Positions 8,020 through 62,042 of a DNA stretch of 64,000 nucleotides are shown here, one piece after another. A program made the position numbers and the translations under genes. Numbering within the stretch: the first letter of the stretch is position 1; every line of letters starts with the position of its first letter. Source of the DNA: Sipunculus nudus (Eukaryota; Annelida; Sipuncula; Golfingiida; Sipunculidae); NCBI GenBank assembly GCA_026874595.1, contig CM049317.1:74034618-74098617 (forward strand), written 5' to 3'. The notes below the pieces were generated by a model. The model did no database searches. It was not told where the DNA came from and saw only the letters and a list, made by a program, of their open reading frames with translations.

Positions 8020-8052
<33 letters not shown>
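8020..8052. repeat. (CA)n microsatellite at the 5' break of the LINE
   Basis: Sixteen CA dinucleotides. The tract lies directly before the open part of the LINE ORF1, so it marks the 5' truncation point or insertion target of the element. Confidence 0.9.
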
Positions 8053-8055
<3 letters not shown>

Positions 8056-8688
8056 GTCACACATTATGTCAATACAAATGGACTTATTGATATTCAATCA
8101 AAAAGTCGTGTCTTAATATTTGGTGATTCCTTAGTGAGAGACTCCTATTCTAGTGTGGCTAACCATTTATGTGACAAGAAAATTTCTGTGTTAAGTACTA
8201 GTGGGCTCACACTTGATAATGCTTTGTCCAAACTACCAAAAACTGCAAAAGATTTGTCAAATGATGATTGTTTAGTGGTTCAAGTAGGCACAAACAACGT
8301 TTATCGTGATGACACCCTAACCTTTGTTAACAAATATACTGACATGCTGCAAAACACTAGAAGCAGCACCAACTGTAAAATTGTCAGTTTGGCAATCCCT
8401 AAATATTTACATGACAGCATTGTAAATAGAAAAATCACCATTATAAACAATGAACTGAGAAAGAGATGTGAATCCCTTGAGAATATCATATTTTGTGACT
8501 GCTCACCACCTTTGAAAAGGTCTTACTATCGATATGATGGTATACATTTTAGTAAATTCGGCACAATTGCAATGACCGGACAAATTGCCTCTAGCGTTCG
8601 ATATTTTCAAAAATCGATGTACACTAGTGAAGACAGCCTAATGGAATCTCAAAATTTTCACGGAGATCAAACAAAAACATCCATATAA
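8053..8688 (+). CDS. LINE ORF1, SGNH-hydrolase/esterase domain (5' partial)
   Basis: The frame is open from the CA microsatellite to a TAA at 8686-8688. It carries the marks of the SGNH (GDSL-like) hydrolase family: block I VLIFGDSLV with the nucleophile Ser at about 8110-8136, the block III-like VQVGTNN at about 8278-8298, and block V DGIHFS with the catalytic Asp/His pair near 8536-8553. There is no ATG before the GDS motif, so the natural start and any N-terminal domain were lost with the 5' end. Similar esterase domains sit in ORF1 of CR1-like elements, where they are thought to act with lipid or nucleic acid in the ribonucleoprotein; the substrate is unknown. The last 58 nt overlap the open frame of ORF2, which lies in the -1 frame. 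Confidence 0.85.
8652..8658 (+). promoter_or_regulatory. Candidate -1 frameshift site (A AAT TTT) in the ORF1/ORF2 overlap
   Basis: In the ORF1 frame the bases read CAA AAT TTT CAC, so the heptamer A AAT TTT fits the X XXY YYZ rule for simultaneous slippage. A -1 shift here lands exactly in the ORF2 frame, which is open from 8631. No downstream pseudoknot was evaluated. Confidence 0.4.
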
Positions 8689-8714
8689 CAGATGATTATT
8701 TACTAAGGAATTCA

Positions 8715-11702
8715 GTGGATGTGTACTCTGATCAGGTTATAAGTCCTAACGTTAGTATTACAGAACAAACAAGCTCTCACTTATCAGATATTTATCAAGC
8801 ATTACCTAGCACCAAACCAATTACACCCGATAATGAAATTCCACCTTCTCTTCCTTCTATTTTGTCTCAAAACCCAAGTATATATTCTGATTTTAAGCAA
8901 TATCGACTAGCTAACCAGGGTACCATATTAGGTCATCTTAACGTTCGTAGTTTGCTACCCAAAATAGAGGAGATTCGCCTCTTGTGTTCTAGTTTAAACC
9001 CTCATGTTTTATCATTAACAGAATCATGGTTAGATAACCACGTTTTTGATTCAGAGATACAAATTGATGATTATACGATTTTTAGATCAGACAGGAATCG
9101 GCATGGCGGAGGAGTTCTCACGTATGTGTTATCGTCGTTAAAACCGGAGTTGGTCACTTTAAACTCAAATGTCGTTGAATGTGTATGGGTTAAAATAATT
9201 TTGGGGAGAAAACCGGTCTTAATCGGTTCTATATATAGACCGCCTAATTCCAGTTCCAGTTACATTGATGAATTACTCGATTTACTTGCTTCTGCCCTTA
9301 ACTCATTCAAACATGTTGTATTACTTGGCGATTTCAATGTAGACTGCTTACGCTCTGAAACTTATATTGCTAGTAAACTGGACTTGCTCGAAAAAATCTT
9401 AGGTCTTAAACAACTTGTAACAGAGCCTACTCGTATTACTCAGCTCACCTCTACAATGATCGACTTGATATTTTCTTCACATCCTAGCATGCATTCAAAT
9501 GTGAAAGTTCATCCTTTATGTATAAGTGATCATTTTCTTGTGACTACCGTTTTGAATAGACCACCTAGGGTCACATTTACAAAATCCGGATATTACCGTA
9601 CCCTTCGTAAATTCAATGAATACAAATTTATCGATGAATTATCGAAATCCAATTTTTTTTCAAGAATTATGCAACTTTCTGATGTAAACTTAGCCTGGGA
9701 AATGTGGCGCTATGAATTTCTGAGAATTTCCAATAACAACGCGCCTTTTATTCGACGTCGCACCAAAGCTCGCGAAAATAAATGGTTCAATAATGATTTA
9801 CTTAATGAGATTCACTTGCGTGATTATGCACATCGGAACGCATTAAGAACAAATCACAGTAATGACTGGTCTGCGTACCGACATCAGCGAAATTATGTTA
9901 CAAATCTTATCAGATCCACTCGTAGCCAGTATTATGCCACGCTGATACAAAAAAATGGCTCCAACCCTGGTTGTGTGTGGAAAGCTTTAAAACACATACT
10001 GCCTTCGAAAACCTCCTCGAATAAAGAAAGCGGAAAGATTGACCCTGATAAATTTAACCATTACTTTACTTCTGTTGGAAAAAATATTAACGATAAATTT
10101 CCGAAAACAATATTTACCTGCGATCATATTGGTAACCCGAATTTGGAATCTTTTGATTTTAATTCAGTTTCGAGTCAATTTGTTTTATCACAGTTGTTGA
10201 AAGTAAACTCCAGTATGAAAGAAGATATACTGGGAATGTCAGGATTTTTCCTTAAGATAGCCGCACCTTATATTTCAGCTCCATTAGCCCACATATTTTA
10301 CATCTCACTTCAAACCGGCGAGTTTCCAGCAGATTGGAAGACCGCTAGGATCACTCCTATATACAAAGGATCTGGATGTAAGGATGATCCAAATAACTAC
10401 CGACCGATCTCAGTTATAGGCCATGTGCCAAAAATAATAGAACAATTCGTTAAATCGCGCCTCATCACGTTTTTTGAAAGTAATAATCTGTTTTCGGATA
10501 AACAATTCGCTTATCTTCCTAATCGTTCAACTTCATTTGCCTTGCACAGCATAATTGACGAATGCTTAATCAGTCTTAATAACAATAATGTTACCGCCGC
10601 ATGTTTCCTCGATGTAAAAAAAGGTTTTGATAGCCTTGATCATACTGTCTTACTTACAAAAATGAGCGACTATGGCATAAAAGGTATACCGCTTATGTGG
10701 TTCGAAAACTACCTGTCTAATCGTAAGCAAGTGGTTTATTCTAATGGATTGCTTTCAGAACCACGCACCTTGGACATAGGTACCCCACAGGGCACTGTCC
10801 TTGGACCTATATTTTTCCTTTTATATCTAAATGATCTTCCAATGTTCCTCAGTGAGAAATGCGTCATTTATGCTGATGATATTTCAATTTATTCTTCAGC
10901 GAATTCAGCCGCTAAAGCTATAGAGTCATTACAAGTAAATCTCGAAATTGCACTTAAATGGTTTAGAGAGAATCGACTGAGTATAAATCCCCAAAAATCA
11001 TCATTCATATTATTTGGCCCCAAGTCTAAAACCAATGGAAATCAACTGAACATTTCCATGGATAACATTACAGTGATGCCGGTTGAACACACAAAGCTTT
11101 TAGGTGTTATCATCGACGCTGGTCTTACATGGAAAAAACATATTCAACTGGTGTGCGACAAAATAGTATCAAAACTAGGTCTCCTTTTCAGATTAAGTAA
11201 AACCTTAGATGTCTTTAGCTTAAACACACTTTACAATGCCTTAATTCAGAGTCACATTGATTATTGTATATCTGTCTGGGGTAATTCCTCCAAAACGTAT
11301 TTATTACAACTCCAAAAACTTCAAAATAGAGCTGCTAGAATCGTTACTAAAACTTATGATACCAATATATCCTCTACATCATTGATTGCAAAATTGGGTT
11401 GGATGAATGTTAAACAGAGATACCAATATTTTGTTTCTTTAATGGTCTTTAAATGTTTGTCTGGTAATGTCCCTCCCTCTCTTACGCATACGTTCAGCCG
11501 TGTTAATAGTGCATATAATACTCGTTTTTCTCAGGGCTTCAATTTATCATTACCTAAACCAAACAGAGAATCCTTCAAAGCAAGTCTTGCATATGCTGGT
11601 CCCATCCACTGGAATTCTTTACCTGTAAGTGTCAAATCTGCAACCAGTCTCTGCCAGTTTAAATCATTGTACAAGCAATTTATGCCATATAATTTTTCAT
11701 AG
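8715..11702 (+). CDS. LINE ORF2: endonuclease/reverse transcriptase polyprotein
   Basis: This 995-codon frame without a break encodes the enzyme that nicks target DNA and copies the element RNA. An apurinic-type endonuclease spans about residues 70-280, with LNVRS (72-79 region), TESW (Glu103), YRPP, GDFN (205-208) and SDH (271-273). The RT spans about 540-800, with ITPIYKG, NYRPIS, FLDVKKGFD (catalytic Asp633), GTPQG (689-693) and YADD (719-722). A C-terminal region with QNRAAR and WNSLP motifs is typical of LINEs. The listed start is a GTG. The frame is actually open back to 8631 and has no ATG until about codon 248, past most of the endonuclease, so initiation or recoding is an open question. 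The segment around residues 500-510 does not match the usual K-A-T-G-x-D loop, a sign of slight decay. Confidence 0.93.
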   Translation: MDVYSDQVISPNVSITEQTSSHLSDIYQALPSTKPITPDNEIPPSLPSILSQNPSIYSDFKQYRLANQGTILGHLNVRSLLPKIEEIRLLCSSLNPHVLSLTESWLDNHVFDSEIQIDDYTIFRSDRNRHGGGVLTYVLSSLKPELVTLNSNVVECVWVKIILGRKPVLIGSIYRPPNSSSSYIDELLDLLASALNSFKHVVLLGDFNVDCLRSETYIASKLDLLEKILGLKQLVTEPTRITQLTSTMIDLIFSSHPSMHSNVKVHPLCISDHFLVTTVLNRPPRVTFTKSGYYRTLRKFNEYKFIDELSKSNFFSRIMQLSDVNLAWEMWRYEFLRISNNNAPFIRRRTKARENKWFNNDLLNEIHLRDYAHRNALRTNHSNDWSAYRHQRNYVTNLIRSTRSQYYATLIQKNGSNPGCVWKALKHILPSKTSSNKESGKIDPDKFNHYFTSVGKNINDKFPKTIFTCDHIGNPNLESFDFNSVSSQFVLSQLLKVNSSMKEDILGMSGFFLKIAAPYISAPLAHIFYISLQTGEFPADWKTARITPIYKGSGCKDDPNNYRPISVIGHVPKIIEQFVKSRLITFFESNNLFSDKQFAYLPNRSTSFALHSIIDECLISLNNNNVTAACFLDVKKGFDSLDHTVLLTKMSDYGIKGIPLMWFENYLSNRKQVVYSNGLLSEPRTLDIGTPQGTVLGPIFFLLYLNDLPMFLSEKCVIYADDISIYSSANSAAKAIESLQVNLEIALKWFRENRLSINPQKSSFILFGPKSKTNGNQLNISMDNITVMPVEHTKLLGVIIDAGLTWKKHIQLVCDKIVSKLGLLFRLSKTLDVFSLNTLYNALIQSHIDYCISVWGNSSKTYLLQLQKLQNRAARIVTKTYDTNISSTSLIAKLGWMNVKQRYQYFVSLMVFKCLSGNVPPSLTHTFSRVNSAYNTRFSQGFNLSLPKPNRESFKASLAYAGPIHWNSLPVSVKSATSLCQFKSLYKQFMPYNFS

Positions 11703-25687: not shown

Positions 25688-27238
25688 ATGTTTGAACAAA
25701 ACCCCAAGTGCAGATTGATTAATCCAGCAAAATCTGAAATAGGTATCATTAGCAAAAAGCACTTGGAAAAAATTAATAGCCAACTGAGACTGAAAACCAA
25801 ACTCAACCAGTGGCAAAATACCGCACAAGTAATATCTTGGTTCAAGAAACTGAAGCTGAAACAAAAATCTAAGTTCATAAAGTTTGATATTGTTGACTTT
25901 TACCCCTCGATCACAGAAGATCTTCTCATGAAAGCCCTCAAATTTGCCAAAACCATGGTCTCCATTCCAGAGGATGTTATCAAAACCATCCTGCACAGCA
26001 GGAAAAGCTTACTGTTTAGCAACGGTAACACCTGGGTGAAAAAAGATCACACAAGTTTTGACGTCACCATGGGCAGTTTTGATGGCGCTGAAGTATGCGA
26101 AATTGTTGGTTTATACATCCTAGATATGTTGAAAAAGGAATTTGGTGTAAATGCTCTAGGCCTGTATCGTGATGACGGTTTAGGTTGTTTCCCCAACATG
26201 TCTGGACCCAAAGCAGACAGCACCCGTAAGAAAATGATCAAACTCTTTTCCAATGTTGGGTTAAAGATAACCATTGAAACTAACCTGACCTGCACAGATT
26301 TCTTAGACGTAACATTTGACCTCCAAAATGACGTCTTCTACCCTTACAGAAAACCGAACAATGACCCTCTCTATATCCACGCACAATCCAATCACCCCCC
26401 AGCTATCATTAGGCAGATACCTATGATGATCAGTAAACGTGTTTCTGACAACTCCTGCAATAAAGAGCTATTTATGAAAGCCAAACCCATGTATGATGAA
26501 GCTTTAGCGAAAAGCGGGTTCTCAGAAAGCTTAAAATATGTTGAACCAACAGTGAAAAGCAAGAGAAACAGGAAAAGGAAAATAATATGGTTTAATCCAC
26601 CCTACAGCCGTCATGTAAAAACCAACATTGGCAGAAAATTCATGAAACTAGTTGAAAAACACTTCCCTCAACATCACAGGTACCACAGGTTATTCAACAG
26701 GAACAATTTGAAAATTAGCTACAGCTGTCTACCCAACATGTCTAACCTGATCAGCAAACATAATATGAAGGTTCTAAATTCTGACAATGCTGTGAATGCA
26801 CCCCAAAAACAATGTAACTGCCGTAAAAAAGACGAATGTCCTATGAATGGTCAATGTCAGCTGAAATGCATTGTCTATAAAGCAACAGTTAGAACAGACA
26901 ATGACGTGAAACACTACATAGGGTGTACTGAAGGTGATTTCAAGACAAGATATAATAACCACAAGCAATCCTTTCGGAACAGATCCCACGCTAAAAACAC
27001 TGAACTGTCTAAACACATTTGGTCACTAAAAGACAACAATACCAGTTACAAGCTCTCCTGGGAAATATCTGCCAAGGCAGCACCTTACTTCTGTGGGACT
27101 AGGAAGTGTGATCTCTGCTTGTCTGAAAAGCTACTTATAGCTACGGCCCCCCCTGGATCATTGTTGAACTCAAGAGCTGAAATTCTCTCCAAGTGCCGCC
27201 ATCAAAACAAATTCACCCTGAAATATTTTAAAACCTAG
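25688..27238 (+). CDS. Penelope-like RT plus GIY-YIG endonuclease (N-terminally truncated)
   Basis: The RT core shows motif A FDIVDFYPSI (66-75), motif B MGSFDGAEVCEIVG (128-141, with the Asp-Gly-Ala-Glu typical of this family) and motif C YRDD (160-163), then FLDVTFDL and the HAQSNHPP block. A basic linker (290-300) leads to a Cys cluster CNCRKKDECPMNGQC (377-390). The GIY-YIG nuclease follows, with VYKATV, HYIGCT (409-414), an Arg/His-rich helix and a conserved Glu in CLSEKL (near 480). Penelope proteins usually exceed 700 residues, so the region before the RT fingers is missing. The ATG used here is simply the first one after the TA tract and is unlikely to be the original start. No internal stops are present. 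Confidence 0.92.
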   Translation: MFEQNPKCRLINPAKSEIGIISKKHLEKINSQLRLKTKLNQWQNTAQVISWFKKLKLKQKSKFIKFDIVDFYPSITEDLLMKALKFAKTMVSIPEDVIKTILHSRKSLLFSNGNTWVKKDHTSFDVTMGSFDGAEVCEIVGLYILDMLKKEFGVNALGLYRDDGLGCFPNMSGPKADSTRKKMIKLFSNVGLKITIETNLTCTDFLDVTFDLQNDVFYPYRKPNNDPLYIHAQSNHPPAIIRQIPMMISKRVSDNSCNKELFMKAKPMYDEALAKSGFSESLKYVEPTVKSKRNRKRKIIWFNPPYSRHVKTNIGRKFMKLVEKHFPQHHRYHRLFNRNNLKISYSCLPNMSNLISKHNMKVLNSDNAVNAPQKQCNCRKKDECPMNGQCQLKCIVYKATVRTDNDVKHYIGCTEGDFKTRYNNHKQSFRNRSHAKNTELSKHIWSLKDNNTSYKLSWEISAKAAPYFCGTRKCDLCLSEKLLIATAPPGSLLNSRAEILSKCRHQNKFTLKYFKT

Positions 27239-27545
27239 CATTCGTACTAATATTCAGCGTGCCCCCTTAACCCCCCCCCCCAACGAGGTTCCGCTGGGCA
27301 GACTCATTTGTTCAGGTAGTTGTTCTCTCACTGCTGGCTCGTGGAGTCCATTGGATGACAGGAAAGTTCTACTTTATCCTGGTCTAATGGGCTTTACGAC
27401 CTTCAGCTAGGAGACTTGCACCACTTGGTATGGGTATAGTATATTTGCCTTTTATATTGTATATTTGCCTTGTATATTGTGTATTTTCACAGTATATGTG
27501 TATTTTTATCATATCATATGTATACTACTGATATTTTCACTGCTT
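27239..27545 (+). other. 3' untranslated part of the Penelope element
   Basis: It contains a C-run at about 27269-27281 and repeated 'tatatttgcctt' words. The words 'gtggagtc' and 'ggatga' recur, in the opposite strand sense, in the LINE-tail neighbourhood at 43260-43330. No coding frame. Confidence 0.5.
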
Positions 27546-27593
27546 CCAAGGCCCTATTAGAAATCATTTCAATATGCTGATTGAGCATCCTGG
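27546..27593 (+). mobile_element. LINE 3'-end hairpin remnant inside the Penelope 3' region
   Basis: The segment from GGCCCTATTAGAAATC to GCATCCTGGTTATAT is a diverged relative of the LINE 3' hairpin at 11984-12029. It is either a truncated LINE insertion or a 3' module shared by the two elements. Confidence 0.55.
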
Positions 27594-27833
27594 TTATATC
27601 TTTGTATTATATTTACTATTTACTACATTATATAACCTCTTTGCCCTGCCCTGTTATGTTCCAGTATCGCACGTGTACCCCGACCAATCCTATTGTGCAC
27701 CCGAGTACAATAGGATCAGTGTCAGTCTTTCACATGCCCCCCCCCCCCCCCACCCGAATCGCACAAAGCATAATCTCGTAATCTCGTAAAGTCTCGGCTT
27801 TTCAAACCACGACGTTAGCTTCATTCTAACCAC

Positions 27834-27881
27834 ATTCACCTGATGATCGGGTCGCATCCCGTGAAACAGTCTGTTGTGAAT
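27834..27881 (+). ncRNA. Type I hammerhead ribozyme motif in the Penelope 3' region
   Basis: All parts occur in order in 48 nt. Stem I is ATTCAC (27834-27839) pairing with GTGAAT (27876-27881). The core CTGATGA follows at 27840-27846. Stem II is CGGG/CCCG with loop TCGCAT. Core GAA is at 27863-27865. Stem III is ACA/TGT closed by GTC, and the cleavage-site base is T at 27875. A U-U mismatch sits at the base of stem II, where a G-C pair is usual. Hammerheads with very short stem III are known in pLTRs of Penelope-like elements, where they process the element RNA and may work as dimers. A second copy lies at 61975-62022 on the minus strand. Confidence 0.8.
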
Positions 27882-27925
27882 TAACAGTGTTGTTTTTCTT
27901 CAGAGTTATATATATATATATATGT

Positions 27926-42984: not shown

Positions 42985-45900
42985 ATATATAAGTAGAAGG
43001 TAGTGTTACCCTCCGATGTTAAGTGCTCTATGGCCTACAGACTAGGCCAGAGCGGTATAACTCTGTTGTTTTTCTTCAGAGTTTTATATATGTATATATA
43101 TATTACCTTTTAATGTTAATGGTAGCGGTATTACTGGATTCGCATAATGGTCGTAATATTATTATAGATTTTATTTTATTTTTTTTTTAATTTATTTCAC
43201 CAGGATGCCCTATTCAGCACAATATGCTTTTCAATAGGGTCCTGGCTCCAGTGATCATTTCAATTTTATACACATGCATAAAAGGCAAATTTACTACACT
43301 CATCCTTTATGGACCCGACTCCACAAACTTGCCATGAGTTACTGAAATGTATCACCTATCTGTGAACAAAACAAGATCTAAACCTGCAGTTGTGACTAGG
43401 ATGAATGCTGACGGACGCTGCAACTTCGATTCAATTCACAAACTAAGGATGCCCTAATGCTGAAACTTTTATAATAAAGTCCCCGCCTTAATATTGGTAG
43501 TATGGCTGATTAAAACCTGCGTGATGTAGTGATAATCAAGGATTTAACCAGATCAATTCTCTGCACCAATACCATGTTGACCTTCCTCCCTGGTCGAAAA
43601 TTTTGAGTGTTATTCACTATGAACTGCCATATTATAATGTTTTAATATGGAGGAAAATGATGTATGAATTCAATTTTTATAAAATGTAAATTAAGTTTTG
43701 AAAACAAATATGTTCTAAACTTTTGCTGTTAAAAATTCATTTAAATCAAATACACATAAATTCACTTAAAATGGCCATATCCTTGCGAATATTTATTCCA
43801 AGAAATAGATGAGGAAAGTTTCTCATATTTGACTGTGAGACAATGTGAAAAAGCTGTGTCTTGTTCTGGTGTAGATGGTGGCAAAGGCTGGTAGACTTAC
43901 TCATGATGCGGCGAGACGTCAAATCACGTGACGTGGAACGCGTGATACCAGGAGGGGGGTAGCCCTCGTTCGGGGCTCGCCCTTCTGCCCCATTTGATAA
44001 CAGCGGTTTGTTTGTAGACGGAACCGACGGATCTGACGGACCTGTACGAACAGAAATACGCCATTTAATTAAAAATATTTTTTGAATATCTAAACAATCT
44101 AAAATATACGCTAATTAAAACAGAGAGGAGAAAGTTAACCAAATACTGAAACAAATATACATTTTTTTTTAAAACATCAGCATGAAAATAAAAAGGCGAG
44201 AACATATGTACCAATAATCTGACCAGTAAACAGTTTATTTTCTTTGGTTTCCGGTCTGATTTTCTATTTAGCCTTATTCAGATATCAAGATAGCGAGATT
44301 GTTTCATCTATAAATAAAGATATATTTTTTTTATATAGGCTTACGGGTCTTCATAAAACTTATAACACTTTTAATTCTAAATTCATGATTTTCTTGTTTA
44401 ATTGCTAAATTAGCTTACACTGATATCCAAATAACGTTTACAATTAGAATATACAGTATGGATGATAACCTTTGTATTCTGATGCCCTGGACGACCCATA
44501 CTTACATCTTGTTCGCGCGGACTTTCTGTCACAGCGACGTTTAATGAAGAAAATGAGGAACACGGTCACGGCACTGGCGATAATAGAGGTAGTTATGGAG
44601 ATGAGGAACGCCTGCCATAGAATGTCCTGATTACCTGTAGAAATAAACAAATCGGGAGAATAAACAAAACTAAATCAGGAGAAGAGATTAGCAAATATGA
44701 TTTTTAACATCTGACAATAAATTTTCCTACGCATTACATCTCTTTACTCTTTCTTTTTAAGTTTATCTATAGAAATAATTATATTCTCCTTTGTGAATTT
44801 ATACTTTACTGCTTTCCAAATTGTATTTTGCAACGATAACACACAAACACAGTGATATCTATTCCTCAATTTTCTCCTACGTAAGGAATATGTCAATTTT
44901 CTGGTAATGCATGCATCGACTGAAAAAAACAGAGCACTTTTTTTTAAATTTTAACTCAACTTTTACAAATTATAGTAAAATTTCACGATAGTTACTGACA
45001 TTTCCAATGAATGGCTGGCTCGTCCTTTTTTCAACACTGAAAAAAAAAGTCTTAAAAGGGGCTACAAATTATTTTCAGCCCTGGCCTAAAAAATTATGGA
45101 CTAACGGGACTTAAATTGCACTCTAAGAAAAAATGGTTCTTGATGGTTCTTTTAAGAACCCATATGGTTCTGGGTAGAACCATGGTTCCATCTAGAACTC
45201 TTCTCTCCATAAAGAGGTTCCATCTGGCACTTGGAGGTTCATGCCCTGACGATAACCTGACGCAAGGTTCCAGATGGAACCTGTGTGTTGACTGGATATC
45301 CCGATGATTAGGACGCGCATGCGCAAGCTATTTGAACTAATGAGGTCAACTGTTCACGGTCGGATGTTTTGGTCTATTGGAAGAGGGAATAATTATGAGG
45401 TAACACCTATGTTTATATACATTTTCATGTGAAGAATGTTGAACATATGGCTAGAGATTAAATGTCCAGTGAATGTATCCAGTTATATGCATATGGAATT
45501 GCATGGAGCGCTGTTTTGAAAACTGGTTAATTGGGGTGTTCAACAATGGGGCCTAAGGAACCAGACGGCCTTTCCCAATGTTAGGTCACGCTTATTTACA
45601 CATTCACTGAAGGTGTTTTCTAATTAATGTGGTGTTTTATTGCCTAATTTTTAACTAGAGTAGACTTTACAAAGGTCGCCTATCCATTCTTTCTCTTTGC
45701 AGTGACCAGATATTTCTGCCTAGATAGCTATAGTGCGAATGAAAGAGAAGAAAGGATTTTGGTAGGAAGATTTCTCAAGGAACTTTCAAATTAGAGAGTT
45801 TTAATTTCAAGTTCACAGTTACGTTTTGGGTAGTTCTTTTGGGCCGAATGATGGTCCAAGGAAGATTGGCAACTCACCATAAGGCATAACTAAATAACAG

Positions 45901-61829: not shown

Positions 61830-61887
<58 letters not shown>
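61830..61887. repeat. (TA)n microsatellite next to a Penelope fragment
   Basis: About 29 TA units running directly into the fragment at 61888. A shorter TA tract follows that fragment at about 62031-62042. Confidence 0.95.
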
Positions 61888-61892
<5 letters not shown>

Positions 61893-62030
61893 GAGTTATC
61901 CCCCGTTGTAAAGTGCTCTATGGCCTACAGGTTAGGCCAGAGCGGTATAACACTGGAGAAAAACAACACTAAAAATTCACAACAGTCTGTTTCACTTGAT
62001 GCGACCCGATCATCAGGTGAATGTGGTTTG
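61888..62030 (-). mobile_element. Solo ~143-bp Penelope terminal fragment carrying a hammerhead motif
   Basis: Read on the minus strand, it begins 'ttcaaaccacattcacctga' like the Penelope 3' region at 27800-27900, and continues past that copy's end into 'ataccgctctggcctaacc', a segment also present at 42993-43050. It has no coding sequence and lies precisely between two TA tracts. Confidence 0.8.
61975..62022 (-). ncRNA. Second hammerhead ribozyme motif, stem II damaged
   Basis: It has the same 48-nt layout as 27834-27881: stem I ATTCAC/GTGAAT, core CTGATGA, core GAAA, stem III ACA/TGT with loop GAC, and cleavage base T. The 3' strand of stem II is CAAG instead of CCCG, so two of the four stem II pairs are lost. 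Cleavage is therefore doubtful for this copy. Confidence 0.7.
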
Positions 62031-62042
62031 AATATATATATA

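Follow-up and report, generated by a model that had tools for sequence, protein, structure and literature searches.

A type I hammerhead motif with a U-U opposition at the base of stem II in the pseudo-LTR of a Penelope-like element of Sipunculus nudus

The closest described systems are the minimal type I hammerheads of Penelope-like elements (PLEs) (Cervera and de la Pena 2014; Lunse et al. 2017), taken here as described by citing papers. According to the available excerpts of one of these papers, they have a weak stem III, lie in the pseudo-LTR, are repeated together with the tandem units of the element and have been proposed to act as dimers (PMC7761336). The motif described here resembles them in each of these respects, dimer action being proposed here as well, and appears to differ from them in having U-U at positions 10.1 and 11.1. 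The role of the PLE hammerheads is called a mystery in the same excerpts (PMC7761336). Natural hammerheads with U10.1-U11.1 have been described (PMC3088659), where U-U allows more cleavage than any other mispair, and palindromic stem III loops permitting dimers are reported in that paper for other hammerheads; both features recur here. The axolotl hammerhead HHR_Amex2, in the part of the report that is available (PMC7229834), likewise combines U-U at the base of stem II with a short stem III, and it reached 22% self-cleavage after one hour and more in dimeric constructs. It belongs, however, to a tandem repeat of ~350 bp, whereas the motif studied here belongs to a PLE unit with an ORF. Animal retrozymes in general are non-coding tandem repeats of ~170–400 bp, while the unit here is 2.9 kb long and coding, and the short copies of this element are dispersed or head-to-head. 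The Poseidon PLE PAc, from the green anole, is similar in having a hammerhead near the ORF start, AT-rich targets, two reverse-transcription start sites that give an optional tail and, as seems to be the case here, uncut RNA as the main substrate (PMC11167929, available in part). Its ORF starts at stem II with the cut site 26 bp behind the start codon, whereas in the Sipunculus element the frame of the next unit has its first ATG 179 nt downstream of the cut site (in unit L036), the tail is ~60 nt and a capped start probably lies just upstream. The same excerpts state that the anole hammerhead showed no cleavage without protein and that unprocessed RNA was the dominant substrate.

The features found in the window, by which we mean the whole 64-kb stretch of DNA that was analysed, are given below. 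The parts of the motif were read letter by letter, and the cleavage position is assigned by what we take to be the hammerhead numbering.

25691–27908, + strand: 5'-truncated Penelope-like element with TA runs flanking both sides, from blastn against an array unit (L036:926-3849)
25691–27238, + strand: truncated open reading frame with FDIVDFYPSI and YRDDGLG, which we take to be reverse-transcriptase motifs, then a Cys cluster and a presumably GIY-YIG-like C-terminus
27821–27826, + strand: Inr-like TCATTC around +1, from the analysis of L036, the window letters being identical
27823, + strand: candidate transcription start (+1) of the family
27834–27839, + strand: stem I, 5' strand, ATTCAC
27840–27846, + strand: core box CTGATGA (CUGAUGA)
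27847 and 27862, + strand: U10.1 and U11.1
27848–27851 and 27858–27861, + strand: stem II, CGGG and CCCG
27850–27854, + strand: DPE-like GGTCG at +28 to +32, in stem II and loop II, from the analysis of L036
27852–27857, + strand: loop II, TCGCAT (UCGCAU)
27863–27866, + strand: core box GAAA, its final A being A15.1
27866–27868 and 27872–27874, + strand: stem III, ACA and TGT, with GTC between them at 27869–27871
27866–27874, + strand: palindrome ACAGUCUGU, the stem III region
27875, + strand: H17, a T
27875–27876, + strand: predicted cleavage site, between U17 and G
27876–27881, + strand: stem I, 3' strand, GTGAAT
27886–27908, + strand: conserved short-type 3' end, GAGTTA then a TA run
42992–43084, no strand assigned: third fragment, head-to-head arms without a hammerhead core, beside TA runs, from comparison to the unit
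61884–62033, − strand: second, older short copy

The window copy aligns with the L036 unit in two blocks (unit 771–2924 with 25691–27839 at 99.16% identity, and unit 1–71 with 27840–27910 at 100%). The start at unit position 771, the 99.16% identity and the end at a TA run identify it as a young 5'-truncated insertion. All genome-wide counts of places given here are lower bounds. When 10.1 and 11.1 are left free and the remaining core is fixed, the pattern is found at no fewer than 1772 places in the 1.43-Gb genome (control 0), and a 25-nt pattern starting 10 nt behind the cleavage site at no fewer than 1893. Tandem units and pseudo-LTRs, a Penelope-like trait, are present: contig C1 contains tandem arrays with units of 2.87–2.93 kb that are 97.5–99.97% identical to one unit. 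The L035/L036 unit of 2921–2925 bp comprises the hammerhead, the tail, a 713-codon open stretch and ~610 nt before the next hammerhead, and L127 holds one further whole tandem unit of the same make-up. Two whole units are found in L037, one with a 703-codon open stretch and one split over two frames; most tandem units carry an open frame of 703–713 codons. From the near-identical units and the open frames we infer that the element has probably been active recently. The earlier note had located the motif in the 3' region of the element, a description that fits only the 5'-truncated window copy, since the pseudo-LTR is where it lies in the tandem units.

The same protein motifs, recognised by eye, are taken to be present in the 713-residue frame of L036. 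In NCBIfam the window frame gave weak reverse-transcriptase matches far under the cut-off (Drt3a, E 0.0013; retron St85 RT, E 0.0019) and the L036 frame gave no reverse-transcriptase match. Pfam returned no match to the ORF at E 0.01 and one of chance level at E 0.1, and a PDB search with the ORF protein returned two chance-level matches only. Viral contigs yielded four pattern matches and no relative when searched with the element protein, and no match when searched with the motif plus the palindrome; with a looser motif, all of the matches listed were taken for chance.

The core boxes CUGAUGA and GAAA are present together with stems I, II and III in type I order, and the boxes, stems and U-U opposition first placed at 27834–27881 in the earlier note are all borne out by the letters. 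A type I descriptor (both boxes, the first pair of stem II free and the next three paired, a stem III of 3 bp and at least five of six pairs in stem I) has one match on the two strands of the 64-kb window and none in 100 dinucleotide shuffles, and the pattern CTGATGA..GAAACA..TGTHGTG has two matches against 0.00 expected. These results and the family copies support the assignment to a type I hammerhead belonging to a PLE, and the motif very likely shares descent with the PLE hammerheads. The covariance search that had been suggested as a check was negative, no Rfam hammerhead family being found at the gathering score, nor in 5001 or 111 bases with the limit relaxed to E ≤ 10. A run of RF00163 on the whole genome also gave no match, but 14 control genomes were silent too and this run therefore says nothing either way.

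The Watson–Crick pair, usually G-C, that is expected at 10.1/11.1 is absent and U-U is found instead. Such a pair is customary in type I hammerheads and not strictly defining, exceptions having been published (PMC3088659; PMC7229834, in its available part), and with these natural precedents the U-U here is not new in kind. Its frequency was determined in the first 100 of the 1893 places, all on C1, plus the window copy, a sample chosen independently of the hammerhead core. Removal of identical stretches left 97 copies, of which 88 had a core within 11 mismatches of the T/T form; the other nine were 5'-truncated, rearranged or, in one case (L101), carried a one-base deletion. Positions 10.1/11.1 are T/T in 85 of the 88 copies, A/T in two and C/T in one; all 72 copies with both boxes intact are T/T, as are all 100 places listed out of the 1772 at which any base was allowed. 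U10.1-U11.1, which had been put forward as a possible family variant, is the family state of this PLE hammerhead. The middle base of stem III (loop III) is A in 61 copies, T in 26 and G in one, with each neighbouring base constant in 87/88, and H17 is T in 78, A in nine and G in one. The stem I bulge varies among groups of copies, and the variants common to many copies lie outside the core. The majority of copies were probably inactive from the moment of insertion, so that their likeness mainly reflects what the masters carried. The G-C form, CTGATGAG..CGAAAC, occurs at 565 places in the same genome (43 in the control), and 40 lettered places of this form are divided, by eye, among four or more further sequence families and some singletons; the U-U therefore belongs to this PLE family and not to all hammerheads of the genome. 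We also considered whether the U-U pair has itself a part in the promoter and found no support for this.

The architecture had been called complete, which holds in so far as all stems and both boxes are present, but stem III costs energy in the monomer, where the hammerhead fold has −6.9 kcal/mol with stem III and −7.6 without it. The best monomer fold (−11.3 kcal/mol) is not the hammerhead, which accounts for 0.013% of the ensemble, and neither the 48-nt nor the 71-nt stretch folds better than its shuffles (z −0.67 and −0.80). Both ACAGUCUGU, for which a duplex of −8.3 kcal/mol is calculated, and ACAGACUGU are palindromes about the variable base, and this palindrome, ACAG-N-CUGU, points to a dimer. 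The dimeric hammerhead has −26.3 kcal/mol compared to −13.8 for two monomeric hammerheads. Two best monomer folds amount to −22.6 kcal/mol and the best unconstrained dimer fold to −29.5, and as neither of these is this hammerhead, other folds compete with it. The dimer hammerhead is far more favourable than the monomer without being the most favourable fold overall. Judged from the sequence, hammerhead activity is likely and is probably weak in the monomer; a PLE family with U-U as the rule would be useful to test whether weak hammerheads are tuned for dimer action.

The ends of inserted copies were determined by comparing 95 copies with one array unit (another filter gave 102 rows and the same 18 ends described next). 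The 5' end lies between −110 and +42 of the core in 68 copies, and the remaining 27 extend further upstream. Eighteen of these 68 ends fall on the single base −17, which is window position 27823; 11 of them are in single copies and seven in head-to-head pairs. A G precedes the −17 end in 6/11 single copies compared to 2/28 other single-copy ends between −70 and +42 (Fisher p 0.003). Genome-wide, with the next 29 letters fixed, the −17 end is preceded by G at 160 places and by A or T at 127, a preceding C being left uncounted because C is native there; in a control two bases further in, where T is native, the corresponding counts are 6 for G and 89 for A or C. Of the nine readable G-preceded places on C1, five are single and four are in head-to-head pairs, in which the partner arm may have supplied the G, and the count for A or T includes at least one long copy with an altered native base (C1:12404904, L014). 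Reverse transcription that runs up to a cap leaves such an additional G at a fixed end. From this one extra base and this behaviour of reverse transcriptase we infer a capped start of the element RNA at 27823; a literature search on cap-derived extra bases in retrotransposition found nothing relevant.

Ends at the cleavage site are few. Within 2 nt of it there are 4 of the 68 5' ends, one in a head-to-head pair, two that are the sides of one palindromic join and one in a single copy (L119). Genome-wide, GTGAATTAACAGTGTTGTTTTTCTTC is found at 1217 places, with a T before it in 1193 and one of the other bases in 24; the 24 include at least one altered H17 (C1:3321297) and one ambiguous case with the flank TGTA (C1:11550918, L066). 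Copies starting beside a T would hide among the 1193, and the 95-copy sample contains none at exactly that base outside the pairs. With so few ends there, the inserted linear templates seem to have been mostly uncut at this hammerhead, and the scarcity is compatible with cleavage of other molecules, or with circular templates. The sharp 5' boundary and the scarcity of ends at the cleavage site are the new part of this analysis; as genomic evidence from another host, they would match the anole PLE in vitro, in that the inserted RNA is mostly uncut.

At the other end of the element, 58 of the 95 copies have the short-type 3' end, while 32 end 56–65 nt further, one ends 23 nt further and four run on. 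Most ends of both types adjoin TA runs (genomic ends). In 16 of 17 head-to-head pairs one arm is short and the other long, the exception (L039) having a long-type arm that is damaged, by eye. On genomic ends alone, the PLE trait of two internal reverse-transcription start sites with AT-rich targets is found, and so is that of inverted copies joined head to head in which one arm bears the optional tail. The two 3' end types resemble the optional tail and two start sites of PLEs in the available parts of PMC3846280 and PMC11167929.

The best explanation, and one that we consider probable, is that a recently active PLE carries in its pseudo-LTR a hammerhead that is weak as a monomer, acts mainly as a dimer or with the aid of protein, and optionally cleaves an RNA with a capped start at 27823. 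The ribozyme would occupy about +12 to +59 of this transcript, and cleavage after 27875 would remove a capped leader of 53 nt. The monomer would be weak owing to the short stem III and the U-U at the base of stem II, and cleavage would take place mainly when two copies pair via ACAG-N-CUGU, as the units of a tandem transcript can, or together with the element protein. It would be optional, most linear templates that were turned into genomic copies having stayed uncut at the site.

A reading that is compatible with this one, so that our estimates for the two overlap, is that the hammerhead trims tandem read-through RNA to units, which a host ligase circularises and which are then reverse transcribed as circles, in the manner of retrozymes, to give the arrays. 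We regard it as possible but rather doubtful. It would account for the tandem units of 2.87–2.93 kb with 97.5–99.97% identity to one unit, and animal retrozymes with type I hammerheads do give circular RNAs (PMC7229834, available part); tandem transcripts or recombination can, however, also build arrays. Cleaved linear templates left almost no footprint, but circular templates produce no 5' end at that site, and the end counts thus leave room for circles. Comparably unlikely is that the motif has lost all or nearly all catalytic activity and persists as a structural element serving protein binding, reverse transcription or promoter function. Both boxes are intact in 72/88 copies and the widely shared variants lie outside the core, which argues against such a loss, as does the finding that U-U supports more cleavage than other mispairs at 10.1/11.1 (PMC3088659), despite the weak stem III, the U-U itself and the mostly uncut inserted linear templates, all of which would suit a dead motif. 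The excerpts of PMC11167929 lend this reading further weight, in that catalytic mutants of the anole PLE leave in vitro insertion unchanged and no RNA-seq reads are reported there to start or end at its cleavage site. Resemblance to a hammerhead by chance is extremely improbable and is rejected, for although Rfam gives no match and the monomer prefers a different fold and is no more stable than its shuffles, none of the 100 shuffles matches the descriptor, two pattern matches stand against 0.00 expected, the family is high-copy and the site is a PLE pseudo-LTR, a known hammerhead location (PMC7761336 and PMC6155905, both available in part).

Within the preferred reading of an optionally cleaving hammerhead behind a capped start, a further and speculative proposal, to which we give only a small probability, is that one stretch serves as a core promoter in DNA (TCA+1TTC 11 nt before stem I and GGTCG at +28) and as a leader-removing ribozyme switch in RNA. 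We take TCATTC to fit the Inr consensus, presumably TCAKTY, and GGTCG at +28 to fit the DPE consensus as we assume it. Among 107 Inr-like words in the window four have a DPE-like partner, perhaps including the one at 27821–27826, and the DPE-like word is for this reason weak evidence. In the G-C hammerhead-like families (40 lettered places, by eye), the DPE-like word does not seem to share this offset and no general rule is claimed. Literature searches for a link between a hammerhead and a downstream promoter element in retrotransposons, and for an internal Penelope promoter in the pLTR, found nothing relevant. If the proposal is correct, a capped RNA that can be translated and inserted would, once two copies in tandem transcripts pair, be switched to an uncapped one lacking the 53-nt leader, and promoter, ribozyme and reverse-transcription start would be carried together by the short copies that run from +1 to the tail.

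The second copy in the window, 88.7% identical to the unit, begins at the −17 position and has a long-type 3' end. The U-U reported there is present in that both T's are kept in its motif (61978–62016, − strand), but stem II is broken (CGGG/CAAG) and the descriptor does not match, so this copy gives no independent support for the fold. Elsewhere on C1, at L035/L036 (C1:55951500-55969500), two tandem arrays of near-identical units lie head to head with their innermost hammerheads ~0.8 kb apart, and one of the G-C hammerhead-like families also shows a head-to-head pair (C1:88419804/88419839). Runs of ~14–15 C are found at window positions 27737, 29057 and 29258, in and near the element. At 8020–8685 a frame with a borderline GDSL-lipase match, below the cut-off, lies just upstream of a long open frame (8631–11699, + strand) with Exo_endo_phos and RVT_1, as in LINE-type retrotransposons.
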